A program made the translations under genes and the position numbers. 23,021 bases of DNA, taken from positions 1-23,021 of the IMG/VR virus record IMGVR_UViG_3300046817_000777; one strand, given 5' to 3'. The notes under the pieces were generated by a model that made no database searches, was not told the DNA's origin, and saw only the letters and a program-made list of their open reading frames with translations. This document shows, in pieces, positions 2 to 17,746 of this stretch. The stretch is from a virus. Numbering within the stretch: position 1 is the first letter of the stretch; each line of letters opens with the position of its first letter.

Positions 2-1984
2 GATCGATATAAGCTCGCCGCCCGCATCAACGGCGTGCTGAAAGGCGTCGCCACGGCCGAATCGTTCACGCTGTCGCAGTCGTATTATTTCGGCAGCGTG
101 AAGCACAATCCGGCGCATTTCGCGCAGGTCATCGACGGCGAATGGTTCGTTGACTGTTGCGACGACCTCGACGCCGGCGCGATCGGGGCGCCGGTCAAGG
201 TGAAGGGTAAGGCCAAAGCGTCACCCCAAGCCGGGCCGGAGACGACGCCGAATCACACCGAAGCGGACCTGGATGAATTTGTTCGCACCGCCAATGATAT
301 CAACACCCACGGCGATCGGCAGTGGCATAATAACATTCGTTCAGTCACTTCATCGATGGTGAGGAAGTTCAAGACCGACGCCGAGATTTATGAGAGGTGT
401 GCGCCGGCGTGTCGCGAGGGTTTTGGTGATGCCGATGTTAAAAAGCTGATCGATACGGCGCGGGAGAAATATGGAGTAGCCGATCCTGAAACCAGCTCGA
501 ATGAATTTATCAGTCTACTCAGCGAATTCACGGCGGAGGCTGCGGCCGCAGGTATTAAAGGGCCGGGATTTCGCAGCAAAGATCAGGAAAAATGGCGGCC
601 CAAGCTGACCGACTTCTATGCCTTCCTGCCAACGCACACCTACATTTTCATTGCGACATCCGACCTGTGGCCGGCAGTCAGTCTCAACGCCATCATGGGC
701 AAGGTGAAGATCGGCACCGAGAAGGTGAAGCTGAAGAAAAAGGACAAGGTCGATCGCGACGGGCCAGACGAATACCGGGTCGAAGAGGTGACGATGCCGG
801 CCTCGCTGTGGCTGGATCGGCATCGTCCGGTGCAGCAGATGGGCTGGGCGCCGGGCTACCCGCAGACGATCGATAACAAGCTGGCCGACGAGGGTGGCTG
901 GGTCGATCATCAAGGGGCGAAGACGTTCAACACCTACAAGCCACCGCCGGCGCGCAATCCTGCAGGCGACGCGCGCAAGGCCGGGCCATGGGTCGAGCTG
1001 TTGCGCGATGTGTATCCAGACCATGCCGACCACATCGCGGCGTACCTGGCGCATCTGATCCAGTACCCTGGCGTGAAGATCAATCACGCACTGGTCATGG
1101 TCGGAGCGCCGGGGATCGGCAAGGACACATTGCTGGAACCGCTATCGCACGGGCTCGGTGAGTGGAATTTTAAGGATATCAAGCCACACAACGTCGCCGG
1201 GCCGCACAACGATTATCTGAAATGTCTGTGTATCCGCATTAATGAGACGCACGACCTCGGTGATGTGTCGAGGTTCACGTTCTATGAGAACACCAAAACC
1301 ATGATCGCGGCGCCGCCGGCCATGGTGCGGATCAACACCAAATATGTGCCGCAGTACTACATCCCCAACGTCAACGGCACTATCATGACGACCAACCACG
1401 GCACCGATGGGCTGTATCTGGAGGCTGACGATCGGCGGCACTACGTGGCGGGCTCCGAGATCACATCAGCCGATTATGAGGATGGCTACCTGCCAGGGAT
1501 CTGGCAGTGGTACGCCGATGGCGGGCTAGATCATGTTGTCGCCTACCTGGCCGAATTAGATCTTGCGGTGCTCGGCTTTACGCCGACCATGCTGCCGGCC
1601 AAGACCCCGGAATTCTGGCGCATGGTCGACGCCGGCGGGGCTGCGGCGTTGCCGGAATTGCGGGACGCGATCGATGCGGCCGGCGCCGATATGGAAAAAC
1701 CAGAAAAACCTCCTGCGGCGGTCACGCTTGCGATGGTCAAAGAGGCTTCGGCCAAGCACAACTTTGACGGGATGTGGGAATGGCTGCACAATAAAAAGAA
1801 CGCCAGAGAGGTGCTGCACCGGATGGAGGACTGCGGCTATGAGCCGGTGCGGTGTGTCGGCCCGGAGGATGGTTTGTGGGTGATTAAGGGGCGCCGGGTC
1901 GTGATCTACGGCAACAAGAAACTGTCGCCATCGGCGCGCTACGCAGCAGCGGAAACGCTAAAAACCAAGGAAAACGCTAGGTAA
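2..1984 (+). CDS. Phage primase-helicase (D5/DUF5906-like SF3 ATPase), 5'-truncated
   Basis: The reading frame is open to the first bases of the window, so the gene starts upstream; the GTG at 35 is only an internal codon. Numbering from that codon, residues about 86-147 are a helical segment like the PriCT linker of phage and plasmid primases. Residues 357-365 (GAPGIGKDT) are a Walker A loop, CIRINE at 399-404 is Walker B-like, TNH at 453-455 fits a sensor, and RR at 467-468 could be an arginine finger. This order is that of DUF5906/D5-type superfamily 3 helicases, which unwind DNA at phage and plasmid origins, often fused to a primase domain. The primase catalytic part, if present, lies outside the window. 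The gene ends just before a large inverted repeat that may be its origin. The ATPase assignment is strong; the precise family is inferred from motifs. Confidence 0.85.
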   Translation, partial: DRYKLAARINGVLKGVATAESFTLSQSYYFGSVKHNPAHFAQVIDGEWFVDCCDDLDAGAIGAPVKVKGKAKASPQAGPETTPNHTEADLDEFVRTANDINTHGDRQWHNNIRSVTSSMVRKFKTDAEIYERCAPACREGFGDADVKKLIDTAREKYGVADPETSSNEFISLLSEFTAEAAAAGIKGPGFRSKDQEKWRPKLTDFYAFLPTHTYIFIATSDLWPAVSLNAIMGKVKIGTEKVKLKKKDKVDRDGPDEYRVEEVTMPASLWLDRHRPVQQMGWAPGYPQTIDNKLADEGGWVDHQGAKTFNTYKPPPARNPAGDARKAGPWVELLRDVYPDHADHIAAYLAHLIQYPGVKINHALVMVGAPGIGKDTLLEPLSHGLGEWNFKDIKPHNVAGPHNDYLKCLCIRINETHDLGDVSRFTFYENTKTMIAAPPAMVRINTKYVPQYYIPNVNGTIMTTNHGTDGLYLEADDRRHYVAGSEITSADYEDGYLPGIWQWYADGGLDHVVAYLAELDLAVLGFTPTMLPAKTPEFWRMVDAGGAAALPELRDAIDAAGADMEKPEKPPAAVTLAMVKEASAKHNFDGMWEWLHNKKNAREVLHRMEDCGYEPVRCVGPEDGLWVIKGRRVVIYGNKKLSPSARYAAAETLKTKENAR

Positions 1985-2009: not shown

Positions 2010-2157
2010 GGTGACATCGGTGACATCGGTGATTTCCAGTATGTGCTCCAAATGGAAGTTATTTTCCAGGTCCTTTCTGTGAATCAAAAGGGTTTTTATA
2101 TAAATATTATGTTATATGGAGCACATACTGGAAATCACCGATGTCACCGATGTCACC
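2010..2157. repeat. Perfect 41-bp inverted repeat with AT-rich centre; candidate replication origin
   Basis: The left arm (2010-2050) and right arm (2117-2157) are exact reverse complements over 41 bp. The 66-bp centre (2051-2116) has 17 G/C bases by my count and includes a run of A/T around 2094-2117. Inside each arm the 9-mer GTGACATCG occurs twice in tandem plus a partial copy (2011-2019, 2020-2028), which looks like iterons. A small inner inverted pair, TGGAA 2053-2057 and TTCCA 2064-2068, lies in the centre. It sits between the helicase stop (1984) and the next start (2209). An origin fits the position and structure; a MITE-like element, large operator or RNA hairpin are alternatives. 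No target-site duplication is visible. Confidence 0.85.
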
Positions 2158-3226: not shown

Positions 3227-3278
3227 TGATTGCCGCTCATGCCACGCGGCCTAGGCCGCGTGGCATGCACTGCAATCA
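3227..3278. repeat. 52-bp near-perfect palindrome (30-bp perfect core)
   Basis: The core 3238-3267 is an uninterrupted 30-bp palindrome centred on CTAG (3251-3254). After a 4-by-4 mismatched internal loop (3234-3237 and 3268-3271) the pairing resumes for seven more bases (TGATTGC 3227-3233 with GCAATCA 3272-3278). It fills the gap between two leftward genes and includes the stop codon of the 268-aa gene. As RNA it would be a very stable hairpin, so a terminator or processing site is likely; as DNA it could bind a dimeric protein. Confidence 0.85.
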
Positions 3279-4082
3279 CCCGACAACGAATCCGCTTTGG
3301 TCTTGTTTGCCCTTGCCCTTGGCATAGAGCGCAACGGCGCTGGCCATTGGGTCAATGTGACGGATATCAGTGTCATCACCATCGACAACGGGCAGACCCA
3401 TGAAAGAGGCGCCGCGTGCGAGCATATCGTTGACGGTCGCGCGCGTGCGGAACACAACTGCGATTCGCATGTTAGCCGCGATCGCAAGCTGAACTTGCTT
3501 TTGGTATTCAGGAACGCCCGAATAACTAAACGTCAAATCATAATTTGCGGGAATCCCTTTACGGTTAGCAAGCTTGGTATAGTCATAGAATTGCACGGCG
3601 GGGTGATTTTCGATTATGCCGTATTGCTCCCAGCGCAAATCAGAGGTTCCGTTCAAGCGTACCAACAAAACATAACCGGTTTTTGCCGCGTGCTTTTCGA
3701 AGCATCGAACCTCGTTATTGATCATGGCAATTGCTTCGGAACGGTACTGCAACAGGAACATGGTCTTTCGTAACCGCGCGAATTGAACGGTTGCCATGGC
3801 GCCGCGGCCGCTGGTATTCAGGCAAGCATCAAAACATTTTGCGGTTTTTGCCATCGGGCAAACATTGTGACCCGACATGGTGTAAGGCGCGAGATAGAGA
3901 ATCGCGGTGCGATAGCCGAGCTTGTTCCCTTTGATCACTTTCGTTGAGCCGTCGAGGCGCAACATCGCGTCAGGCTTGCGAGAAAACCAACGCAAAAGCT
4001 TTTTTGAGCTCAAGATTTGCTCGCGTGTATCGGGAGCAAGCTTGGTTAGATCATAGATGACTGTTGCGGCTGAATACTTCAT
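3276..4082 (-). CDS. Cys-motif phage protein, GP88/DUF7227-like
   Basis: The frame extends upstream to 4490, but the start is placed at ATG 4082: ATAACAGGA (4092-4100) lies nine bases before it, and the upstream part overlaps a separate small gene and a divergent gene. The 268-aa product has C75, C83 and C87 in NVCPMAKTAKCFDACLN, followed by SGRG and a basic helix (ARLRKTMFLL). VRLNGTSDLRWE (141-152), FYDYTKL (165-171) and DGDDTDIRHIDP (234-245) are further conserved-looking motifs. This pattern resembles uncharacterised phage families I know as GP88 or DUF7227. The three Cys could bind a metal or Fe-S cluster, but the spacing is not the radical-SAM CX3CX2C. The function is unknown. The stop lies inside the 52-bp palindrome. 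Confidence 0.7.
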   Translation of the reverse strand: MKYSAATVIYDLTKLAPDTREQILSSKKLLRWFSRKPDAMLRLDGSTKVIKGNKLGYRTAILYLAPYTMSGHNVCPMAKTAKCFDACLNTSGRGAMATVQFARLRKTMFLLQYRSEAIAMINNEVRCFEKHAAKTGYVLLVRLNGTSDLRWEQYGIIENHPAVQFYDYTKLANRKGIPANYDLTFSYSGVPEYQKQVQLAIAANMRIAVVFRTRATVNDMLARGASFMGLPVVDGDDTDIRHIDPMASAVALYAKGKGKQDQSGFVVG

Positions 4083-4091
4083 AGGTTCGGT

Positions 4092-4100
4092 TCCTGTTAT
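4092..4100 (-). promoter_or_regulatory. Shared ribosome-binding leader ATAACAGGA, copy 2
   Basis: Minus-strand ATAACAGGA followed by ACCGAACCT and ATG 4082. It decides the start of the 268-aa gene, because the longer open frame upstream has no comparable site. Confidence 0.6.
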
Positions 4101-4108
4101 GGTGGGGT

Positions 4109-4210
4109 TTAGAGCGGACGATATTGACGGGTGACACAGAATGAAAAGCAAAGGCGGCCGATTTTGAAAAACCGAATACCGCCAACGCGGCGAGTCGTGA
4201 CGTTGAACAT
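4109..4210 (-). CDS. 33-aa microprotein
   Basis: A short frame with ATG at 4208-4210 and TAA at 4109-4111. The product starts MFNVTTRRVGGIRFFKIGR and ends VTRQYRPL. It is basic and alternates hydrophobic and polar residues, as in two or three beta strands. It is accepted as a gene because ATAACAGGAAA stands just before the ATG, the same leader as the two larger genes of this cluster, and because it ends 26 bases before the next start, as in an operon. Tiny basic proteins with similar endings occur in other phages as far as I recall, but I cannot name a family. Function unknown. Confidence 0.5.
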   Translation of the reverse strand: MFNVTTRRVGGIRFFKIGRLCFSFCVTRQYRPL

Positions 4211-4217
4211 TTTCGTT

Positions 4218-4226
4218 TCCTGTTAT
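4218..4226 (-). promoter_or_regulatory. Shared ribosome-binding leader ATAACAGGA, copy 3
   Basis: Minus-strand ATAACAGGA with seven bases to ATG 4210. It is the main evidence that the 33-aa frame is translated. Confidence 0.5.
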
Positions 4227-4250
4227 GCTCGTTTCAGTGTTTGCAATATC

Positions 4251-4264
4251 GTCCCGATCGGGAC
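4251..4264. promoter_or_regulatory. 14-bp perfect palindrome in a divergent gap; candidate operator
   Basis: GTCCCGATCGGGAC is its own reverse complement. It lies in the 69-bp gap between the leftward gene ending at 4210 and the rightward gene starting at 4280, and directly abuts the AGGAG ribosome binding site (4265-4269). A dimeric regulator bound here could control both directions; no clear -35/-10 pair was recognised. Confidence 0.5.
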
Positions 4265-4279
4265 AGGAGTCAATAGGTC

Positions 4280-4591
4280 TTGTCAGATAATCTGAAAAAT
4301 AAACCGCGGCCGCAATCGGGGAATGCCGCGTGGCGTGCGGCCATGGCAAAGCATGCGATAAAACCGGGATATGCGAATAGACGGCGCTGCGTCGCCATTG
4401 CGCGGCACAATGGCGCGCCGTGCGGTCAATTAGCGATGCGCGGCGTTCCAGTATGCCGCTGGCATGGTGGCAATATGCTACAAGCCGCAAAGCGTATCAG
4501 GGAGGCGAAGCGCAATGCAGAGCAAGCCCCGCTTAATCGAAGCGGCCGACAAGCCCGGGACAGATTTAAACGCGCCGGCGCCGGGCTCTGA
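4280..4591 (+). CDS. HGG-motif Cys protein (HGGxSTG-like)
   Basis: A 103-aa basic protein. C37, C48, C59 and H62 lie in RRRCVAIARHNGAPCGQ and PVCRWHGG, the pattern of the HGGxSTG-domain proteins common in proteobacterial phages and prophages; the four residues could hold one zinc ion. The STG part is replaced by NML here. The C-terminus is Arg/Lys-rich. The start is a TTG at 4280: an in-frame stop at 4274 excludes anything further upstream, AGGAG is at 4265-4269, and the next ATG (4343) has no ribosome binding site. It overlaps the next gene by 77 bases. The role is not established; such genes are often found near terminase genes, which is context only. Confidence 0.65.
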   Translation: MSDNLKNKPRPQSGNAAWRAAMAKHAIKPGYANRRRCVAIARHNGAPCGQLAMRGVPVCRWHGGNMLQAAKRIREAKRNAEQAPLNRSGRQARDRFKRAGAGL

Positions 4592-5696: not shown

Positions 5697-7103
5697 ATGC
5701 CCGCCATTGTTCGCCCAAAACAGTCGATCTTGTTTTCTGATCGGCCGCGCGGCCTGGTTCAGGCTGATTTGCTCGACGCCCAAATTCACAATCTGGTGCA
5801 GGCCATCCACTCGACGCAGGTTGCGTTGGAAGAGATCCGCCGCGACGACGGAAAATTGAAGAATAACATCGTCGGTCGCGACCAGCTTGAGCAGGATATC
5901 AAGCACAGCCGCTCGGAAATGGACACTGTCGAGCAGCGCGTCCTCGCTGCCGCGCAAAATGCGGTTGAGGCGGTCGGCAGAGTGGTCGGCGCCGGCCGTG
6001 ATGTTGATTTGCGCGCCAATGACGCCGAAGCGGCCGCCGTCAGCGCCGCAAAATCGCTTTCTGCGGTGACGCTCGACAGCGCCACGGCGTTTGACGCGGC
6101 TTCTGATGCTGATAATTCGGCCGATCGCGCTGAATCTGCCGCGATCCAGTCGGAAAATTGGTCAAATCACAGTCTGGCCAATTCTGATAACGCCATTGCT
6201 GCTAAAAACGAGGCGACGCAGTGGGCCGAGTACCTCGCCGGCCCGGTGGTCGACCCCAATGCGGCGCCGGCGTACATCCAGAACCACCCTTATGGCCACG
6301 GTTTGTATTATCAGCCGGTGCAAGGCGGTCTGGCCGGCCTGTGGTCGGCAAAATGGTGGGCGTTGTACGCTCAGCAGCTCGTCGGCAATGTCGGATTTTA
6401 CTATTTGGGCGCCTCCGACACGCCGCCGATCCCGGGCGGCCAGAATCCGGTCACCGGACAGGCTTATCCGAACCCGATTGCGCCTGGCAGCTTCTATTAC
6501 GACACCGCGGCGCACCCGCCGCAGGTTTATTTCTGGAATGGCAGTCAGTGGACCACGGCAAATCCGACTGTCACTGCTGGTTATATGGCGCGCTACGTTT
6601 ACACCGCCGCTGCCGGCCAGACCACGTTCAGCGGCATCGATAACAACGGTGTTATTCCGACATTCACCGACGAAGGTCACAATATTCACGTCAACGGCGT
6701 GCGTTTGATTCCGAATGTCGATTTCATCATCGATAATCCGAACCAGAGCGTATCTTTGGTCGAGGGCGTTCCTGCCGGCAGCAGCGTGCAGTGGGATCTG
6801 CTGATTTCCGGCGACAAGGTCAACTCCGCGGCAATGGACTCATTCAAGTGTGAGCCGCTATCGCCGGATGGTTCGCAGCTGACGTTTCTATTGACCTACA
6901 TTGACCCGATCAGCACCAACTCGACGCCGTGCCAGATCGGCACCGGCGCGCAGCTGCTGGTGAGCCAGGACGGTGTCATTCAGGAGCCCGGCATCGATTT
7001 TACCGCGGTTGGTAATGTTTTAACGATGGCTGTAGCGCCATCGGTCAGCAGCAAGCTCTGGGCGGTGTGGTATCGCCCGCACATACAGATGGATCTGCCA
7101 TGA
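5697..7103 (+). CDS. Tail fibre protein with Ala-rich coiled coil
   Basis: A 468-aa protein, first of the fibre operon. Residues about 25-180 are an Ala/Ser/Asp-rich coiled coil (such as AANQ-free runs like AATQ-type heptads around EAAAVSAAKS and SADRAESAAI), as in T7-like tail fibre shafts. Residues 232-290 hold YYLGASDTPP and SFYYDTAAHPPQVYFWNGSQW, the common fibre motif ending in W-N-G-x-x-W. Residues about 300-370 (YTAAAGQTTFSG, VNGVRLIPNVDF) and about 385-460 are two copies of a beta-rich module also frequent in phage fibres. It probably forms a trimeric fibre attached to the tail. GAGG at 5684-5687 precedes the ATG by nine bases. Its stop overlaps the next start (ATGA). Confidence 0.8.
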   Translation: MPAIVRPKQSILFSDRPRGLVQADLLDAQIHNLVQAIHSTQVALEEIRRDDGKLKNNIVGRDQLEQDIKHSRSEMDTVEQRVLAAAQNAVEAVGRVVGAGRDVDLRANDAEAAAVSAAKSLSAVTLDSATAFDAASDADNSADRAESAAIQSENWSNHSLANSDNAIAAKNEATQWAEYLAGPVVDPNAAPAYIQNHPYGHGLYYQPVQGGLAGLWSAKWWALYAQQLVGNVGFYYLGASDTPPIPGGQNPVTGQAYPNPIAPGSFYYDTAAHPPQVYFWNGSQWTTANPTVTAGYMARYVYTAAAGQTTFSGIDNNGVIPTFTDEGHNIHVNGVRLIPNVDFIIDNPNQSVSLVEGVPAGSSVQWDLLISGDKVNSAAMDSFKCEPLSPDGSQLTFLLTYIDPISTNSTPCQIGTGAQLLVSQDGVIQEPGIDFTAVGNVLTMAVAPSVSSKLWAVWYRPHIQMDLP

Positions 7104-9211
7104 GCCAGAACCTTCGCGTCGCCACCTGGATCCCTGTCGTCGATCCTGACGTCGACGGCGAAGTGATCACCGCCACCGGGCCGGCCTCGGCCAACGAAAT
7201 CGTGCCGACCGCGTTCTCGATCGGCGGCGGCCCCAAAGGTGACAAGGGTGACAAGGGTGACAAGGGTGATCCCGGCACCAACGGTACCAATGGCGTCGAC
7301 GGCGCGATCGGTCCGATCGGCCCGCAAGGACCGCAGGGCATCCAAGGCGCCAAGGGTGACAAGGGCGACAAGGGTGACACTGGCGCGTCCGGCAGTGGCA
7401 CCGGAGACATGCTGGCCGCCAACAACCTGAACGACGTCGCCAGCAAGCCCACTGCGCTCGCCAACATCGGCGGCGTGGCAAACGCTGGCGGCACCATGAC
7501 TGCCGATCCGACCGTGGCGCTCGGTGTCGCTACCAAACAATACGTCGATAATCACACCGTCACCGGCAGCTTTCTGCCGATCTCCGGCGGCACGCTTACT
7601 GGTGATTTGGAGTTGGCGACCGGCGCCAATATTTACGTCGACGGTGGCAACATCGACGTCGCTTACGACGCCTACATTGGCGGCAATGCCAATGTGACGG
7701 GGGTCGGCACATTCGGCAATGCGAAGATCAGCAATCCGCCGGTTGCCGGCAACGACTTAACAAACAAGGCTTACGTCGACAGCAAGGTCGCCAGTGGTGT
7801 TACGAAGAGTTATGTCGACAGTCAGGACGCGCTTAATGTTTTGAAGAACGGCGGCACCATGACCGCTGATCCGACCGTCGCGCTCGGCGTTGCCACCAAG
7901 CAGTACGTCGACGCCAAGCCGGCCGGTGGCGCCATCGTCTCCGACACGCCGCCGGCGTCGCCAACACCCGGCCAAATGTGGTGGGAGAGTGATTCCGGTC
8001 TGCTCTATATTTGGTTCAATGATGGCAGCTCGTCGCAGTGGGTGATCGCGACGCCGATGCCGGATTTGTCGCTGGTGAATGGCGCCGTGCAGAGGGCTGG
8101 CGACACGATGAGCGGCAATCTGACGATTTCTAATTCGTCAGCGTCAACCGGGTTGTTCTTGAACAGGGTCGCGGGCAACACCGCTGTAATCATTGCACAG
8201 AAGGCCGGACTTAATCGCTGGCAGATGCAGCTTATGTCCGGCGACACTGAAAGTGGTGGCAACGTCGGGTCTAATTTTGCCCTCTTTAGGCATGATGATG
8301 CTGGTGTTTTGTTGGCGGGCGGCCCCATTTTATGGGCCGCACGTCAAGATGGGCTGCTTCAAGTTCTCGCCGACCCGACTGTCGCGCTCGGCGTCGCCAC
8401 CAAGCAGTATGTCGATGCCAAGGCCGGCCGGCCGCAGCTCAGCGCCGCGCGCACCTGGTACACCCGCACCGACGGCAATGACGGCAATGACGGCTCGGCC
8501 AACGACGCCGCTCATGCGTTTAAGACCATCCAGCGGACCTGGACCGAAATCTGCAAGTATGATCACAACGGCTTTGCGGTGACGCTCAAGCTCGGCGCCG
8601 GCATGGTGTTTACCAATGACAGCTTGACGACCACTGCCACCAATATGCCGGTCAACGGCCTCAACATCACGCTCGATGGTAGCGGCTCGACCATAAGTCC
8701 ACAGTTTGGTCAATCCGTTTTTCACACCGCGCCGAATGTTCTCTTGCAGATTTACAACTGCGTCCTCAATTCGTCGTTTGGTAGTCCCTGCGTTACATTC
8801 AGCGGCCGCGGCGTCCGGGGCACCATCGCCGGAGCCAATACATTCGGCGCATCGACCGGCGGCAACGGCACGCATATGCGCGTCGACGGTGGCGCCTACA
8901 TGAATGTGAGCAATCCCTACACGGTGACCGGCGCTGCCAGCTATCATTACTACGTCAGCAAGCAGTCGATGTTTGATATAAGCGCCATCAATCCGACACT
9001 GCTCTCCGGTGCAACCTTCACCAACTTTGCCGTGTGCGAATTCGGCAGCTATCTCGGCATTTCGACGGTGAACTTCGTCAACGCGGCTACGATCCTTGGT
9101 CAGCGTTATTTGTGTTCAAGCAACGCGGTGATCAACACGGGCGGCGGTGGCGCCAATATGTTCCCTGGCAGCGTTGCCGGCGTGAGTGCCACCGGCGGCC
9201 AGTACATTTGA
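7100..9211 (+). CDS. Collagen-like tail fibre with repeats and beta-helix-like end
   Basis: The start ATG 7100 overlaps the previous stop as ATGA, giving 703 aa. Residues 44-98 are Gly-X-Y triplets (GPKGDKGDKGDKGDPG, GPIGPQGPQG), which would form a collagen-like triple helix and imply a trimer. The motif ADPTVALGVATKQYVD occurs at residues 135-150, 256-271 and 424-439, with a degenerate relative (NDLTNKAYVDS) between; such xxATKxYVD repeats are typical of phage fibre shafts. From about 445 the YTRTDGNDGNDG...AFKTIQ motif opens a region resembling beta-helix pectin-lyase-like domains of tailspikes. A depolymerase is possible, but no catalytic residues can be named. Probable receptor-binding fibre. 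Confidence 0.8.
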   Translation: MSQNLRVATWIPVVDPDVDGEVITATGPASANEIVPTAFSIGGGPKGDKGDKGDKGDPGTNGTNGVDGAIGPIGPQGPQGIQGAKGDKGDKGDTGASGSGTGDMLAANNLNDVASKPTALANIGGVANAGGTMTADPTVALGVATKQYVDNHTVTGSFLPISGGTLTGDLELATGANIYVDGGNIDVAYDAYIGGNANVTGVGTFGNAKISNPPVAGNDLTNKAYVDSKVASGVTKSYVDSQDALNVLKNGGTMTADPTVALGVATKQYVDAKPAGGAIVSDTPPASPTPGQMWWESDSGLLYIWFNDGSSSQWVIATPMPDLSLVNGAVQRAGDTMSGNLTISNSSASTGLFLNRVAGNTAVIIAQKAGLNRWQMQLMSGDTESGGNVGSNFALFRHDDAGVLLAGGPILWAARQDGLLQVLADPTVALGVATKQYVDAKAGRPQLSAARTWYTRTDGNDGNDGSANDAAHAFKTIQRTWTEICKYDHNGFAVTLKLGAGMVFTNDSLTTTATNMPVNGLNITLDGSGSTISPQFGQSVFHTAPNVLLQIYNCVLNSSFGSPCVTFSGRGVRGTIAGANTFGASTGGNGTHMRVDGGAYMNVSNPYTVTGAASYHYYVSKQSMFDISAINPTLLSGATFTNFAVCEFGSYLGISTVNFVNAATILGQRYLCSSNAVINTGGGGANMFPGSVAGVSATGGQYI
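7238..7270 (+). repeat. 9-bp tandem repeat coding Gly-Asp-Lys
   Basis: GGTGACAAG occurs three times exactly (7238-7264) followed by GGTGAT. A second block with GGTGACAAG and GGCGACAAG starts at 7355. It encodes the collagen-like triplets and is prone to length change by slippage. Confidence 0.8.
7502..8416 (+). repeat. Three dispersed 48-bp repeats in a fibre gene
   Basis: Copies at 7502-7549, 7865-7912 and 8369-8416 encode the same 16 residues and differ mainly at third codon positions. The second and third copies are closest and share the following GCCAAG codons. They delimit in-frame segments of about 363 and 504 bp (both multiples of three), so recombination between them would delete or add whole modules. 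Confidence 0.8.
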
Positions 9212-9220
9212 GGGCGATCA

Positions 9221-10156
9221 ATGCTCGATTTTCCATCTTCACCAACCAACGGCCAGAAATACCCGGCTTCGCCGATCGCCGGCATACCGACCTACACCTG
9301 GGACGGCGAGAAATGGACGACGCAGGGTGCGTCGATCGGTCAGTACGTCGCCAAGACCGGCGATACCATGACGGGAGATTTGGCGTTCGCCACCGGCAAG
9401 GCCACCAGCTTCAACGGCGGTAACAACGTCATCAAAGAATTTGCTGGCGGCAACTCCGGTCAAGCGCAGCTGGGCTTCTACGGCAACAAGCCTATCACTG
9501 CGTTCAAATATATCAGCACCGATGGTGGCATAGACGGCCCACAGATTGCGACCTATCACGCCTCGCCGACACCGGCAGCAAATGACATCATCGGGCGGTG
9601 GAGCTTTAACGCTAACAATCCAAGTCTCGTTGAAGCTAACTTTGGTGGAATAGCCGCTAATGTTACTGATTTTACTCCGGGGACGGAGACGGCTTATGTT
9701 TCTTTGAATGTTCTCAGGGGCGGTGTTCAAGCGAGTGTGCGCCTCGATCCGGCAACCTACGCCGATTACTTAGCTAACACATCACCAAACAACACTCGGG
9801 TGCTCACTAGCGGCGCGGTGTGGAATGCGGCTCCGCCAGTCGCATTAACAGATGGGGCTGTTGTTACTTTAAATTGGGCAACCGGAATTAATTTTTATTG
9901 GCAGATCGGCGGCGCCAACCGCGTGTTCCCTAATCCGCCATCTACCGGCGGCAAGATGGGACAGACCGGAATTATTATCATTCAACAAGATGGGACAGGT
10001 AATCGCACCATTGCATCATGGGGTAGTTTTTTTCATTTCCCTGGCGGTGTTAAACCGACGTTGTCAACGGCGCCTGGTGCGGTCGATATTATTTCTTATT
10101 GGATACAAGACCCCACCGCCGCCATTCGCTGTAGCTTCGCAGCGGACTATAAATAA
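9221..10156 (+). CDS. Short tail fibre protein
   Basis: A 311-aa protein. The N-terminus (LDFPSSPTNGQKY, then YTWDGEKWT) is a common phage fibre opening. KTGDTMTGDLAFATGKATSF (45-64) is a fibre-shaft repeat. From about 177 to the end is a compact C-terminal module: VWNAAPPVALTDGAVV, GINFYW, NPP, KMGQTGIIII, ASWGSFFHFPGGVKPTLS and SYW. The same module ends the gene at 12693-13877, so the two are paralogous at this end; it may bind the receptor or cap the trimer. GAGGG at 9210-9214 lies six bases before ATG, within the previous stop region. The final stop shares a base with the next start (TAATG). Third-position A/T is more frequent from about 9600 on than in the preceding gene, suggesting mosaic origin. 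Confidence 0.75.
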   Translation: MLDFPSSPTNGQKYPASPIAGIPTYTWDGEKWTTQGASIGQYVAKTGDTMTGDLAFATGKATSFNGGNNVIKEFAGGNSGQAQLGFYGNKPITAFKYISTDGGIDGPQIATYHASPTPAANDIIGRWSFNANNPSLVEANFGGIAANVTDFTPGTETAYVSLNVLRGGVQASVRLDPATYADYLANTSPNNTRVLTSGAVWNAAPPVALTDGAVVTLNWATGINFYWQIGGANRVFPNPPSTGGKMGQTGIIIIQQDGTGNRTIASWGSFFHFPGGVKPTLSTAPGAVDIISYWIQDPTAAIRCSFAADYK

Positions 10157-12090
10157 TGTTGCAAGGGATAATCCCATCGCTAGGCTTGAGCGCGGCCGCC
10201 ACTCCCGCCACCAACTACCGTGTGCCGCGTTCGCTGCGCTTTAATTCTGCCAACGCCAACACCTACGCTGGTTATGTCAACGTCGTGAATAGCGACAAGC
10301 GCCAGATCATGACGGTCAGCACTTGGTTCAAGCGCATCGCCATCAACGCCATTCACTACATTTACGGTGGGTTTGTTGATGCCAACAATTACGTTGGCCT
10401 GTACATCAATACTAACGGCAGTATGAGCCTGGTTGTTTTTATCGGCGGCACTTTGGTTGTTAATAAAAACTTTGGCAATTACACCGACCTCACCAAATGG
10501 TTTCATGTTTGTTTCTCCATCGACACGACGCCGGCAACACCGACGGTGACCATCGAGATCAACAGTTTTCCGCCAGGATCATACATCACCAACACCAACA
10601 CCCTGACGCAGAACACGCAGCTGCCGTGCCACGTCAACGGCGCGTCGATGTGGCTCGGCACCTACAGCGGGCCGCAGTATCTGTATTGCGGTTACCTCGC
10701 CGAGACGCATGTCCTCGACGGCATCAAGCAGCCGGCATCTGCATTCGCCAAGCAAGACGCAGTGCAGGGCTGGATACCGAAGGCGTATCTCGGATTGCAC
10801 GGCGCCAACGGCTTCTTTGTCAACTTCGGCGATAACAGCAGTGTTGCCGCGCTCGGTAAAGATTTGAGCGGCATGAGCAATTTGCTGACGTACTCGGATA
10901 ATTTTACAATATGGTCAACAGTTAACAGCCCAACTGTTACTGGTGGACAGCCTGATTTGTTTGGCGGCACCAATGCTTTCAAACTTGCGGTTGGACCAGG
11001 AGGCAACGTAAGCCCGGCAGTCACTGCTATCTACACTTATAGTGCGGGGCAACAAACTACTGCCACGGTGTATGCTAAAACAGGAACACCCGGCTTTAAT
11101 GGCCTCGGTCTTTATAATGGTTGGACGCAAGGTGCTTACGCTGGGTTTGATTTGGATGCTATCACTATCAATGCACCAGCCTTCATCATCGGAAATGCCA
11201 CCAATCCAGCAGCAACAATAATCGACGCTGGTAATGGTTGGCGCAAATGCTCCGTTACTGTTACGCACAATACGGCTGGTGATGATGTTGTTTGTTTAGT
11301 TGGGTCCGTGGGCACAACCACTCCTGGCAACTACATTACAATTTTCCGCGCCGATTTAACCAACGGCGCAATCATGCCAAGCGAGTTGCAGCTCGTCACC
11401 GGCACCGCTGTGCCGAACAAAAATCTGCCGATGCAGAATTTTCTCCTTTCCACCGTCTACACCAACGACAGCTTTGTTGACGTGCCGTCGAACACCGACA
11501 CCGACACCGGCAAGGGTGAGGAGGTCCGTGGCAATTATGCGGTGATGAACCCGAACGATAGCTACAGCATGTCCTTTGGCTGGGGTAATTTGTACGGGGG
11601 AAATCCGTCGGCGACGGCGCAATGGGGCAACGCCCGCTCGACCCTGAACGCAATCCCGCTGGCGAAGCATTGGTGGTGCGAATTCAATGTGTGGTCCTTA
11701 AACAGCTATACGATGTTTGGCACCGGCGATCCGGCGCAGGGTCTGCCGACCTATCCTGGTGCGGCGCAAAACGCCAAATCTATTGGCTACCTCATTAACG
11801 GATCAATTTACGTCAACGGTGCGGTTACCACGACTGTTGCCGCGCTCGCCGTCGGCGATTTTGTCGGAATTCGCATATTCAACGGTGGTGTGTATTTCTA
11901 CAAACTGGTCGGCGGGGTGTGGACGCTGCAAGTTCAGGCGGCATCGGGGCTGACCGGCATGATCAGCATCGTCGCCGGTGCCTACGTCGCCGGCGATGCT
12001 TACTTTGCCAATTTTGGACAGCGCAAGTGGGCGGCGCCGCCGCCTGCCGGCGCGCTGGCGATCTGCTCGCGGAACCTGTTGCTGCCATGA
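10156..12090 (+). CDS. LamG-like lectin adhesin with inserted carbohydrate-binding-like module
   Basis: A 644-aa protein starting in a TAATG overlap. Residues about 25-215 match the concanavalin/LamG-like pattern of phage adhesins: SLRFNSANANTY, TVSTWFKR, NYVGLYINTNG, KWFHVCFSIDTT, YCGYLAETHVLDG. Residues about 241-420 (NLLTYSDNF, TATVYAKTG, GWRKCSVTVT) resemble carbohydrate-binding beta-sandwich modules. It is inserted where similar phage proteins run straight from GKDLSG into a PNN-type linker, which resumes here as NKNLPMQNF at 421. The rest (DSFVDVPSNTDTDTG, EVRGNYAVMNPND, then GDFVGIRIFNGGVYFYK) is like a SPRY-type lectin domain. It probably recognises a surface glycan. No signal peptide. 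The function is inferred from folds; none of the sugar ligands can be named. Confidence 0.75.
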   Translation: MLQGIIPSLGLSAAATPATNYRVPRSLRFNSANANTYAGYVNVVNSDKRQIMTVSTWFKRIAINAIHYIYGGFVDANNYVGLYINTNGSMSLVVFIGGTLVVNKNFGNYTDLTKWFHVCFSIDTTPATPTVTIEINSFPPGSYITNTNTLTQNTQLPCHVNGASMWLGTYSGPQYLYCGYLAETHVLDGIKQPASAFAKQDAVQGWIPKAYLGLHGANGFFVNFGDNSSVAALGKDLSGMSNLLTYSDNFTIWSTVNSPTVTGGQPDLFGGTNAFKLAVGPGGNVSPAVTAIYTYSAGQQTTATVYAKTGTPGFNGLGLYNGWTQGAYAGFDLDAITINAPAFIIGNATNPAATIIDAGNGWRKCSVTVTHNTAGDDVVCLVGSVGTTTPGNYITIFRADLTNGAIMPSELQLVTGTAVPNKNLPMQNFLLSTVYTNDSFVDVPSNTDTDTGKGEEVRGNYAVMNPNDSYSMSFGWGNLYGGNPSATAQWGNARSTLNAIPLAKHWWCEFNVWSLNSYTMFGTGDPAQGLPTYPGAAQNAKSIGYLINGSIYVNGAVTTTVAALAVGDFVGIRIFNGGVYFYKLVGGVWTLQVQAASGLTGMISIVAGAYVAGDAYFANFGQRKWAAPPPAGALAICSRNLLLP

Positions 12091-12290
12091 TTCAGACCAC
12101 CGGCAAGATCATCGGCGCCGTCACTGACGGACTTAAAGATCGCCCGCTGGCGCTGGCGCTGGTCCTGGTCAATGTGCTGTTTTTGATCATGACGTCCGGG
12201 TTGCTGTATTCGGTCAACGAACACGGCCTGCGGCGTGATAAGTTGATTTCTGATTTGATCCAACTGTGCTCACCCAAACGCGGAGACTGA
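12087..12290 (+). CDS. Small single-pass membrane protein
   Basis: A 67-aa protein; its ATG overlaps the preceding stop (ATGA). Residues 20-41 (PLALALVLVNVLFLIMTSGLLY) are a clear transmembrane helix, preceded by a short amphipathic stretch with K and D and followed by a charged tail with RRDK and KRGD. No signal peptidase site is evident. It could be a holin-type or other inner-membrane protein, but one helix and no adjacent lysin do not settle it. It sits inside the adhesin operon, which is an unusual place. Confidence 0.65.
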   Translation: MIQTTGKIIGAVTDGLKDRPLALALVLVNVLFLIMTSGLLYSVNEHGLRRDKLISDLIQLCSPKRGD

Positions 12291-12292
12291 AG

Positions 12293-12691
12293 ATGGCGAA
12301 TTACCACATCGAAGCCAACGAAGTGATTTCGATCGTCGGTCCGGCCAAGATTAGCGTTGTGTCCGATGTTCCGCCGGTCACCGCGGTGGTCGATGCGCCG
12401 ACCATCACCGACTTAGAGCCTAGTTCGGTGGCGCTTGGTGACCCTGACGTCGACCTTCACGTTACCGGAACCGGGTTCACCGAAATTAGCTGCATCGTTT
12501 TTGACGGTCACGACGAACCCACCAAGCTGATTTCTGAGACCGAAGTCAGTACCGGCGTGAAGCCGTCGTTGTTCACCGAAGCCAAGGATATCGGCGTTGC
12601 GGTGCGCAACGGCAGTATGATCAGCTCCACACTGCCGTTCACCTTCACCGCATCCGGCACCCGCAGCGCGAGCCGTCGCAAGAGGGATTAA
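12293..12691 (+). CDS. IPT/TIG-like Ig-fold protein
   Basis: ATG 12293 is chosen because GGAG at 12282-12285 lies seven bases before it; the frame is open further upstream. The 132-aa product has residues about 36-119 with the IPT/TIG signature: PTITDLEPSSVALGDPDVDL, then VTGTGF, a strand with IVFDG, and VAVRNG with SSTLPFTFT. Such Ig-like domains are common in phage tail and surface-exposed head proteins, where they bind polysaccharide weakly. The C-terminus is basic (SRRKRD). No transmembrane segment. A decoration or fibre accessory protein is likely; the exact virion site is unknown. Confidence 0.75.
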   Translation: MANYHIEANEVISIVGPAKISVVSDVPPVTAVVDAPTITDLEPSSVALGDPDVDLHVTGTGFTEISCIVFDGHDEPTKLISETEVSTGVKPSLFTEAKDIGVAVRNGSMISSTLPFTFTASGTRSASRRKRD

Positions 12692-12692
12692 A

Positions 12693-13877
12693 ATGCCAGC
12701 ACATGTTCGCTTGCGTCGGGATTCCAATCCGGCGACGCCGTTTCCGCCGACCATTGAGCCGGGCGAACTTGCGCTGAACACGGCCAACCGTCAGCTCCTG
12801 GCCGGTGATGCTGACCCAGCTTCGCCTGGTACTTTGATGACGATCTTGGCTGTGCGGGTGTTTGATTCCCGCGGCATGTATGGGGTTGGCGATTATGTCG
12901 TCCAGTCCGGCAACATGTACCGTTGCAAGACGCCACACGGCCCGGCCGCGTTCAATGCTGCTAGTTTCGAGCAGATTGTCGGCGTTGATGCAGCCGCAAC
13001 GAAGCTTGCGAACTATCTGCTGTTAACCGGCGGCACCTTGAGCGGCGCGCTGCAGTTGCCGGCTGCGGCGCCGATCGCGGCGACCCAGGCCACCAACAAG
13101 AAATACGTCGACGACCAGATCACCGGCCTGATCCTCGGCCAGGTTTCGGCTTCGACGATCAACAACACGCCGTCCGGCAACATTTCATCGACCACGGTGC
13201 AGGACGCGCTCAGCGAGCTAGACACCGAAAAAGTGGCCAAGGCCGGCGATAGCATGACGGGCCAGTTGGCGCTGCCGGCCACGCCGGCGTCTGGCCCAGC
13301 CAATGCGGCGCGGCGCGACTACGTCGACAGTGTGAGAACCGACTTCGGTGCGGCTGACGGGACGTTGCAGACCAATATTGACGGTAAGGTCGCCAAAGCC
13401 GGCGATACGCTGACTGGACAACTATCGCTGCCGACTGTGCCGGCTCCGGTGGCCGCCAATGCGGTCCGCAAGGATTACGTCGATACGCTGCTGGTTCCGG
13501 CCACGGTCGCTGAATTCACCAGCAACGCCAGCGCCGTCAAGATGCTGACGCCGGCGACGGTCTGGAATGCGGCTGGTTTGGTTAGTTTGACCGGCAATGC
13601 CGTGCAGCCCGACTTCGGCGCTGGTATCGACTTTTACTGGCCACTCAACGCTAGTTGCACGTTGTACAACCCGCTGCGGATGAAGGTCGGGCAGAAGGGG
13701 ATGATCTATTTTGGCGTCGCCGGTCCTGGCTGCAATGTCGGCGCCTGGGACAGCGCCTGGAAATTTCCCGGCAGTTTAAAGCCGGTATTTTCCGCCAACG
13801 GCGGCTTCGATGCGATGTCCTACGCCGTCGTGAACTCCTCGTTTATCTGCTGTTTCTTCGGGGCCGGGATGGGTTGA
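12693..13877 (+). CDS. Tail fibre with Mtd-type N-terminus and chitin-binding-like segment
   Basis: A 394-aa protein; GAGGG at 12682-12686 precedes ATG 12693 by six bases. Residues about 5-45 (RLRRDSNPA, PGELALNTANRQLLAGD) match the N-terminal virion-attachment domain of Mtd-like fibres. Residues about 62-95 (YGVGDYVVQSGNMYRCKTPH, then FNAASFEQI) resemble a family 5/12 chitin-binding module. Three fibre repeats follow at about 107-140, 180-212 and 233-265, each with TLSG/SMTGQL and KKYVD/RDYVD. Residues about 269-394 are the C-terminal module shared with the gene at 9221 (VWNAA, GIDFYW, KVGQKG, WKFPGSLKP). Receptor-binding fibre; trimer likely from family precedent. Confidence 0.75.
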   Translation: MPAHVRLRRDSNPATPFPPTIEPGELALNTANRQLLAGDADPASPGTLMTILAVRVFDSRGMYGVGDYVVQSGNMYRCKTPHGPAAFNAASFEQIVGVDAAATKLANYLLLTGGTLSGALQLPAAAPIAATQATNKKYVDDQITGLILGQVSASTINNTPSGNISSTTVQDALSELDTEKVAKAGDSMTGQLALPATPASGPANAARRDYVDSVRTDFGAADGTLQTNIDGKVAKAGDTLTGQLSLPTVPAPVAANAVRKDYVDTLLVPATVAEFTSNASAVKMLTPATVWNAAGLVSLTGNAVQPDFGAGIDFYWPLNASCTLYNPLRMKVGQKGMIYFGVAGPGCNVGAWDSAWKFPGSLKPVFSANGGFDAMSYAVVNSSFICCFFGAGMG

Positions 13878-15957: not shown

Positions 15958-16185
15958 ATGGCAATGCCAAAAGTCCCGATCGTCAAGATTAAGCCGCCGC
16001 CGGTCGCCAAGGCGCCGCCACTCACGTCCAAGACCATGGACACTTACACGCATCACACTTCGCCGGTGAAAGGACCACAGCCAATGCCGGCGGAAGTGGA
16101 CGCTATCAGCTCCAAGCCGATGGTGAAGATCAAGACACTGCCGGACGCGCCGATGGCAAAATACAAGCATGTCGAAGAACCCTGA
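15958..16185 (+). CDS. Hypothetical Pro/Lys-rich protein
   Basis: A 75-aa protein with AAAGGAA (15944-15950) seven bases before its ATG. It is rich in Pro, Lys and Val (PIVKIKPPPVAKAPP, PMVKIKTLPDAP); the two related VKIK segments suggest an internal repeat. No domain is recognised. It overlaps the terminase start by 17 bases, so it may be translationally coupled to it. It occupies the position where a small terminase often sits, but it does not look like one. Confidence 0.55.
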   Translation: MAMPKVPIVKIKPPPVAKAPPLTSKTMDTYTHHTSPVKGPQPMPAEVDAISSKPMVKIKTLPDAPMAKYKHVEEP

Positions 16186-17746
16186 CGAGGTTATTCAGCT
16201 CAAGCTGCTAAAGCGCAAACGTGCGATCCTGGATGCGCGTGGTGATCTGATTGCGTTCACGCAGCTGATGATGCCGGATCCCAACTTCGACGACAATGTT
16301 GAGCATTCGCTGTATCAGCCGCAGAGTTTCCACCGGCTGATCGCCAAGTCGCTGGAGGAGGTCGAGCGCGGCGATTACCGGAGGTTGATGATCAATGTCG
16401 GACCCAGATTTGGAAAGACTACGCTCGCTAGTGCCATGTTTCCTGCATGGTACGTTGGTCGACATCCTGACCGCTCTATTATTGTTGCTACTTACAACGA
16501 GCATTACAGCTGGGATCTTGGCCGTCGGGTAAGGGATATTATGGAGACACCTGAGTACAAGCAGGTGTTCCCTGAAACCGAAATCAAAGTTGGCGCCAAT
16601 GCGGTTAACCGAGTTCAGACGACGCGCGATGGGGTCGTCTTCTCTGTTGGACGTGGTTCCTCGATCACAGGCCGCGGAGGTCACTGCATACTTCTTGATG
16701 ACCCTATTAAGGACCGAACTGAAGCTGACTCGGTCATCGTTCGTGAGAAATTATGGAGCTGGTATAACCAAGTGCTCCGTACCCGGCTCATGGACAGCAC
16801 GGGCACTATCGTCATTGTCCAAACCCGGTGGACCGAGGATGACTTAGTCGGTCGCCTGATCGACCCGATGAATCCGTACTTCAACGTCGAGGAAGCCAAG
16901 GCCTGGCGCAAGATCGACCTGCCGGCGTTAGCGGAAGCGGATGATCCACTCGGCCGCAAGGAGGGTGAGCCGCTGTGGCCGGAGCGGTTCACCAAGACTT
17001 ATTTGGAGGAGATCCGTGCCACCGATCCACGTGGATTTGCTGCGCTGTATCAGGGCCGTCCAGGCCCTAAAGATGGGGCCTTCTTCAAGTCTGAGGATAT
17101 CGTCACTTACAACAAAATGGATGACGTCCCGGCGTTCCATAAACTCAGGTTCTATGGAGCGTCGGACCATGCCGTATCGGTTGCTAAATCTGCCGATAAG
17201 ACCTGCCTCTTGATCGCTGCGGTCGACGAGAAAGACCACATCTGGATCATGCCGGACCTGGTCTGGGAGCGTCTCGATTCACATGACGCGGTCGAGCGCA
17301 TGCTCGGTCTGATGAAGAAATACCACCCGCAGTTCTGGTGGGCGGAAGGCGGCAGCATCACCAAGAGCATCGGGCCGTTCCTGCGTCGGCGGATGCGGGA
17401 AAAGCAGATCTTCTGCGCCATCGACCCGATCAGCCCGGCTGCGGACAAACAGCAGCGCGCCCAGGCGATCCAGGCCCGATCGTCAATGAAGATGGTACAC
17501 TTCCCTGGCTTTACCCGTTGGTGGTCGGATGCGCTCGACCAGATCTTGAAGTTTCCGCACGGATCGAAGGATGATCTGGTAGATACATTAAGCTTGATCG
17601 GATTGGGGCTTGCCAAAATGCACGGCCGTACCCGCACCAGGCACGTTGAACCTGAGGTCGTGGCAGGCACGTTCCGTGAAATGATCGAGAACACGCGCCG
17701 GCGTGAAGGGCGTGAAAAGCGCGGCAGGAGTCTGCAAGGATGGTAG
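16169..17746 (+). CDS. terL: Terminase large subunit
   Basis: A 525-aa packaging motor that translocates DNA into the procapsid and cuts the concatemer. The ATPase N-domain shows Walker A GPRFGKT at 78-84, Walker B ILLDDP at 174-179 and coupling motif QTRW at 218-221. The C-terminal RNase H-like nuclease shows likely metal-binding residues D333 (GASDHA), E393 (WAEGG) and D468/D472 (SKDDLVDTLSL). Length and order are standard, and all key motifs appear intact. The start overlaps the preceding gene; no strong ribosome binding site is seen there. The portal begins seven bases before its stop ends. Codons between about 16400 and 16880 end in A or T more often than in the flanks. Confidence 0.95.
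   Translation: MSKNPDEVIQLKLLKRKRAILDARGDLIAFTQLMMPDPNFDDNVEHSLYQPQSFHRLIAKSLEEVERGDYRRLMINVGPRFGKTTLASAMFPAWYVGRHPDRSIIVATYNEHYSWDLGRRVRDIMETPEYKQVFPETEIKVGANAVNRVQTTRDGVVFSVGRGSSITGRGGHCILLDDPIKDRTEADSVIVREKLWSWYNQVLRTRLMDSTGTIVIVQTRWTEDDLVGRLIDPMNPYFNVEEAKAWRKIDLPALAEADDPLGRKEGEPLWPERFTKTYLEEIRATDPRGFAALYQGRPGPKDGAFFKSEDIVTYNKMDDVPAFHKLRFYGASDHAVSVAKSADKTCLLIAAVDEKDHIWIMPDLVWERLDSHDAVERMLGLMKKYHPQFWWAEGGSITKSIGPFLRRRMREKQIFCAIDPISPAADKQQRAQAIQARSSMKMVHFPGFTRWWSDALDQILKFPHGSKDDLVDTLSLIGLGLAKMHGRTRTRHVEPEVVAGTFREMIENTRRREGREKRGRSLQGW

Follow-up and report, generated by a model that had tools for sequence, protein, structure and literature searches.

A mirrored iteron element directly downstream of an SF3 helicase gene as a candidate replication origin in a phage family

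SF3 initiators with an origin just downstream of their own gene are already known from P4 crr, the SaPI ori and the pRN1 stem-loop. In the P4 record, crr is annotated as required in cis for replication and lies directly after the alpha gene; its GGTGAACA repeats are inverted and have a spacing of 9 bp in the tandem pair. The type I repeats of P4 crr and ori are read by the alpha protein, and the C-terminal winged helix of the P4 helicase is described as binding the origin repeats in a passage of PMC4234260 that cites Ziegelin and Yeo. The origins of SaPIs are placed immediately downstream of Rep and made of iterons recognised by its C-terminal domain; binding by this domain has been shown for Cch2 of SCCmec (PMC7581432). 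Plasmid pRN1 has an essential 100-bp stem-loop after orf904 (21-nt stem and 58-nt loop at 75 °C) whose structure is kept and whose sequence is not, and the same was proposed for phage BIP-1 (PMC4234260). A scan of BPP-1 for the stem-loop proposed for BIP-1 did not find it, the best arm being 9 bp. In the case of the Nitratiruptor phage NrS-1, 8-nt recognition sites in opposite orientation have been suggested as the possible origin (PMC7102993). It was to pRN1, SaPI/SCCmec and NrS-1 that the literature on SF3 helicases with iterons or origins pointed, and a literature search for the iteron word described below returned nothing relevant.

The inverted-repeat element and its helicase gene

The DNA analysed here (the window) is a linear virus fragment of 23,021 nt from IMG/VR (IMGVR_UViG_3300046817_000777, positions 1 to 23,021). 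It contains a single copy of an inverted-repeat element (2006–2161), placed between the stop codon of a helicase gene (1984) and the first plausible start of a gene beyond it (2209) and identified as a candidate origin by arm search, simulations and comparison with relatives. An exact-arm search gave perfect arms of 41 bp at 2010–2050 (+) and 2117–2157 (−), the first beginning 26 bp from the helicase stop, and with two mismatches allowed the arms extended to 48 nt (2006–2053 and 2114–2161; 96 % complementary). When the window was simulated 50 times with a first-order model, the longest perfect inverted arm arising by chance within 400 bp measured 12–17 bp. The 66-bp centre (2051–2116) has a GC content of 25.8 % compared with 58.3 % for the whole window, a trend that is repeated in relatives, and is the predicted melting region. 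Single-stranded RNA of 1985–2180 had a predicted fold of −104 kcal/mol (z −14.6), and the DNA fold of the element had a z score of −14.5 against shuffles.

Each arm consists, from outside to inside, of two copies of GGTGACATC, a partial unit GGTGA and an inner box TTTCCAGTATGTGCTCCA of 18 bp. In the left arm (+) these units occupy 2010–2018, 2019–2027, 2028–2032 and 2033–2050, respectively. Their mirrored counterparts in the right arm (−) are the iterons at 2149–2157 and 2140–2148, the partial iteron at 2135–2139 and the inner box at 2117–2134. Many relatives have a CTATCTCCATT-type box at the position of the inner box. The original prediction had described a 148-bp symmetric element with exact 41-bp arms too long to be expected by chance, tandem 9-mers in each arm and a centre of about a quarter G/C, and all of these claims held on re-analysis. 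It had placed the 9-mers in another phase, and its account of the arms covered the iterons and made no mention of the second conserved unit, the inner box.

The adjoining gene (2–1984, +) runs off the contig on its 5′ side and comprises the C-terminal 660 codons of an SF3 helicase of the NrS-1/SaPI PriRep/D5-like kind, as assigned by Pfam, PHROG, profile and Foldseek searches. It matched DUF5906 in Pfam (3.2e-9) and DNA primase in PHROG, and the sole PDB match of the family profile was the NrS-1 phage primase (6e-11). An AlphaFold2 model of the helicase part (pLDDT mostly 80–98) matched the C-terminal region (CTR) of NrS-1 in Foldseek (2.6e-16), with further matches to ASFV PrimPol, SaPI5 PriRep1 bound to dsDNA and poxvirus D5/E5. 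Residues G368, G373, K374, E415, N465 and R479 were invariant in the family alignment (A5) and correspond to Walker A (GxxGxGK), here GAPGIGKD at 1103–1126 (+), an acidic Walker B, the sensor Asn and the Arg finger. With both the motifs and the matching fold of the NrS-1/DUF5906 group, the protein is an SF3 helicase of the type found in self-loading initiators. The original prediction had called it a primase-helicase, of which the helicase part is borne out and the primase is probable: the N-terminal part is beyond the contig edge, and NrS-1, the closest fold, has an AEP primase domain. The last 130 residues were modelled confidently (pLDDT 90.8) in the b-a-a-a-b-b order of a winged helix, and the best PDB matches of this C-terminal model were winged-helix DNA binders, at weak scores (Foldseek, best E 0.05). 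This region is therefore a predicted winged helix, and residues 567–630 (1700–1891, +) are its putative iteron-reading part according to the model, Foldseek and the co-variation described below.

Compared with these features, P4 crr is alike in adjoining a primase-helicase gene and in having inverted GGTGA-type repeats, a 9-bp tandem pair and an A+T-rich stretch. P4 differs in that alpha has a TOPRIM-type primase, a second, distant ori is present, and the repeats are less regular and form no long perfect hairpin. SaPI shares the origin behind the helicase gene and the C-terminal reader, and SaPI5 PriRep1 is among the closest folds; judged by published description, however, the iterons of SaPI/SCCmec differ in sequence and length (AAGTG for Cch2), and the mirror-perfect arms present in the window have not been described for these origins. 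In pRN1 a stem-loop likewise lies just past an AEP-SF3-winged-helix gene, with structure conserved over sequence, but this is an archaeal plasmid and its stem-loop is without iteron structure according to PMC4234260, whereas the arms in the window are 9-bp iterons. The NrS-1 primase-polymerase is the closest solved structure to the window helicase, and inverted GGTTACACTTTTGG repeats lie just past its gene; unlike in the window, the arms are only 14 bp and fall within the gene annotated next. That gene also contains, just past the NrS-1 primase gene (L400, approximately 4050–4355), copies of GGTTACACTTTTG in both orientations. Moraxella phage Mcat4 (L401, 4170–4520) resembles the window in having iterons directly after an SF3 primase-helicase gene, in this case inverted GTGCAGGGT iterons of 9-bp period around an A+T-rich stretch, and differs in its iteron word, its more scattered arrays and a best arm of 20 nt. 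Of these two named phages, taken as checks, Mcat4 has clear inverted repeats past the primase gene and NrS-1 short ones. The Mcat4 helicase is annotated as a hypothetical protein, and no origin is annotated in the stretch fetched.

Other features were noted elsewhere in the window. Two hairpins between minus-strand genes are possibly terminators, one at 2852–2883 (14-bp perfect arms AAGCCCTCGCCACG, 4-nt loop) and one at 3227–3278 (26-nt palindrome at 88 %). A GP88-like protein of unassigned function (3276–4490, −; PF17338 1e-37, phrog_1617 4e-62) is encoded between the structural genes and the candidate origin region. A row of tail-fibre-like genes at 5697–13877, several with ATKQYVD/NKAYVD-type motifs, are possibly duplicated receptor-binding genes, and the gene at 7067–9211 has a collagen-like GDKGDKGD stretch.

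Inverted repeats behind related helicase genes

Relatives of the window helicase were selected by protein alone, giving 58 loci with enough sequence (32–52 % identity). No relatives were recovered when exact peptide words of the window were used in single-protein searches, and the search was built stepwise, with an alignment including distant phage helicases first and closer relatives afterwards. An inverted repeat with a score of at least 18 was present around the helicase stop in 39 of the 58 relatives (40 of 59 with the window), and at a score of at least 14 in 47 of 58 (48 of 59); the corresponding counts in control windows, which were mostly coding, were 0 of 620 and 6 of 620. Dereplication to 46 helicases left 29 and 36 loci with a repeat at the two thresholds, respectively. 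The check proposed in the original prediction, to look for the element in other phages whose helicases are related, was thus positive. The median arm in relatives was 35 nt and the median middle 76 bp, and in 37 of 40 elements the G+C content of the middle was below that of its locus. The genes downstream of the element differed between loci, the largest family being present in 6 of 46, indicating that the element belongs with the helicase. In one relative (L242), perfect arms of 36 bp begin at the stop codon and consist of TGAAAGCCC twice followed by TGATTTCC, where the arm in the window has TGACATCGG twice followed by TGATTTCC; in another (L329) the iteron word is GGTCGTGAA. By eye, two tRNA-like sequences seem to lie at the helicase stop of L348 (after 5335), in the place of the inverted repeat in relatives.

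Loci were also collected by repeat pattern. Another IMG/VR virus (L003) carries the same 23-mer in inverted arrays just after an SF3 primase-helicase gene. GGTGACA repeats alone gave many coding matches in IMG/VR, from glycine-rich reading frames, and were replaced by inverted-array patterns and protein-first tests. With a looser repeat pattern, loci with SF3 genes mostly had inverted GGTGACA arrays directly after the stop. Inverted GGTGACA arrays alone identified 39 loci, about 20 of which had an SF3 gene ending within approximately 230 bp or overlapping.

The same layout, with other words, was detected behind VapE-type helicases, for which an 8-mer in at least four copies was found in the 400 bp past the stop in 38 of 78 loci compared with 18 of 1309 controls. 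After dereplication, inverted 8-mer arrays were present in the first 400 bp at 27 of 59 loci and in 0–3 loci for other 400-bp bins. The words differ by lineage, and GGTGACA occurred in both orientations in only 4 of 78 loci, which indicates that the shared feature is the layout and not the word. Among the inverted iterons seen 0–400 bp after these stops (L129–L208) were TGTCCCAG, TGTACCCA, CAGTACCC, TGTGACGG and others, mostly with a 9-bp period. The inverted iterons behind about half of VapE-type primase-helicase genes are probable origins, which could be predicted in bulk. Nine distant DUF5906 relatives in INPHARED (approximately 25–30 % identity) had no such repeat directly downstream, and in a wider IMG/VR set of distant DUF5906 helicases arrays were often located about 2–3 kb downstream or were not found; both results count against the origin reading. 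Four loci (L312, L270, L268 and L321) have inverted GTGGGTCAT- or TGTGGACA-type arrays approximately 2–2.5 kb past the SF3 stop, not directly downstream.

Co-variation within the arms and with the winged helix

Arms in the relatives consist of two to three tandem 9-bp units followed by the inner box. The best period was 9 in nearly all arms, with a unit often of the form GTCnGTGAA; a universal TGTnnCC theme across all words was unsupported (10 of 50). Arm letters vary widely between phages yet agree across both arms. All 24 tested pairs, from 21 loci, had changed on both sides, such that the stem-loop after the gene keeps its structure under sequence change in the manner of pRN1. As the inverted-repeat finder favours well-matched arms, the pairing and mirror statistics are inflated: 95.2 % of cells were paired (63 % when shuffled, 28–41 % when slid), differences between neighbouring units in one arm were mirrored in the other arm in 62 cases and not in 25, and mismatch was 5 % at mirrored positions versus 20 % at other positions. 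At a laxer threshold the counts were 78 and 35, with mismatches of 5.6 and 20.6 %. The inner box is mirrored between arms as well.

Since the arms are mirrored position by position, inner box included, the origin in this phage clade might act as a hairpin or cruciform, beyond two sets of double-stranded iterons, with stem extrusion and arm-to-arm copying forming part of initiation. This suggestion is tentative and we consider it rather doubtful. If true, a single element would combine the iteron type of origin with the stem-loop type, and its 9-bp recognition word would be changeable.

Distances between iteron words were compared by correlation with distances between regions of the helicase for 29–32 loci. 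The word was correlated with the winged helix (residues 567–630) after removal of the core (partial r 0.37, P=0.001), and the same value was obtained for dereplicated loci (partial r 0.37, P=0.002), whereas the correlation with the core after removal of the winged helix was −0.07. The middle, linker and tail of the helicase gave no significant correlation with the word, and a wider C-terminal region gave the same picture as residues 567–630. As the word tracks only the winged-helix region, this domain probably reads the 9-mer, the evidence being a specific correlation and not proof.

Interpretation as a replication origin

The position of the element, its symmetry, the co-variation between its arms and the co-variation of the iteron word with the winged helix are all computational observations. 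The features of an SF3-initiator origin are present: a location directly downstream of an SF3 primase-helicase gene, as in most of the 58 relatives, an A+T-rich stretch with short iterons of both orientations on its two sides, and an initiator with a C-terminal winged-helix domain, the last according to the model and with weak PDB matches. We estimate a probability of approximately 0.83 that the element is a phage replication origin, directly downstream of the initiator gene whose product reads it. The candidate origin of the original prediction is supported in this by the inverted repeats at the helicase stops of related loci and by the co-variation of word and winged helix. By analogy with the P4, SaPI and pRN1 systems, the C-terminal winged helix of the primase-helicase would bind the tandem 9-bp iterons of each arm, which would set two helicase rings face to face, as mirror images, on either side of the A+T-rich centre. 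The rings would melt this centre using ATP, and the exposed strands would be primed by the primase portion of the protein, with replication proceeding in both directions.

Iteron arrays often serve as control sites too, and the helicase or another phage protein could bind those of the window to regulate copy number, transcription or partition, with replication starting at another site. P4 has an ori plus a separate crr with the same repeats, and a small HTH regulator is encoded near the element (2421–2795). However, the element tracks the helicase gene and has no conserved downstream gene, and the A+T-rich centre and the winged-helix co-variation point to the helicase rather than to a separate repressor, making a control site unlikely. 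The very stable fold past the stop codon would also suit a long hairpin at the 3′ end of the helicase mRNA, serving to terminate or protect this transcript. We regard such an RNA element as very improbable, as the hairpin is without a T-run, a terminator scan finds nothing there, and a terminator needs neither tandem 9-bp units nor a 66-nt A+T-rich loop; moreover, the word tracks a DNA-binding domain, and in VapE phages the arrays are retained but mostly lack long perfect hairpins.

Packaging, recombination and dimer-resolution sites commonly have inverted repeats, but the terminase gene is 14 kb away (16169–17746), no recombinase was recognised adjoining the element and the association is with the helicase, so that there is only a slight chance of a site of this kind. 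The chance that the element is a MITE, as the original prediction had allowed, or another mobile insertion, or an artefact of assembly or amplification, appears negligible. Although inverted arms of such insertions, and chimeric inversions, can resemble it, the element is present in a single copy, its arms end within the contig, and DNA searches found no homologue in phage collections and only chance-level short matches in plasmid collections. Relatives have an analogous element of unrelated sequence in the same place, which would be expected of neither an insertion nor an artefact. Of the two findings that the original prediction had named as contrary to an origin, MITE-like copies at many loci and a clear GC-skew origin elsewhere, neither appeared. 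GC skew is uninformative on a fragment of this kind: the cumulative curve climbs early, has no minimum inside and gives no support for an origin.

A phage family with mirror-perfect iteron arms and a changing 9-bp word tied to the winged helix looks undescribed. No earlier description was found in a search mostly of non-subscription literature, and one may exist. Origins of uncultured phages are rarely known, and here sequence alone suffices to find a probable origin family, by proceeding from the SF3 primase-helicase to the DNA past its stop codon and from there to the iteron word. The mirrored arms also bear on the question raised by pRN1, namely double-stranded repeats versus extruded hairpins. 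Given the co-variation of the word with a single small winged-helix domain, pairs of word and domain provide many natural examples of DNA recognition by self-loading SF3 initiators, and the specificity of these initiators becomes directly testable by domain and word swaps.
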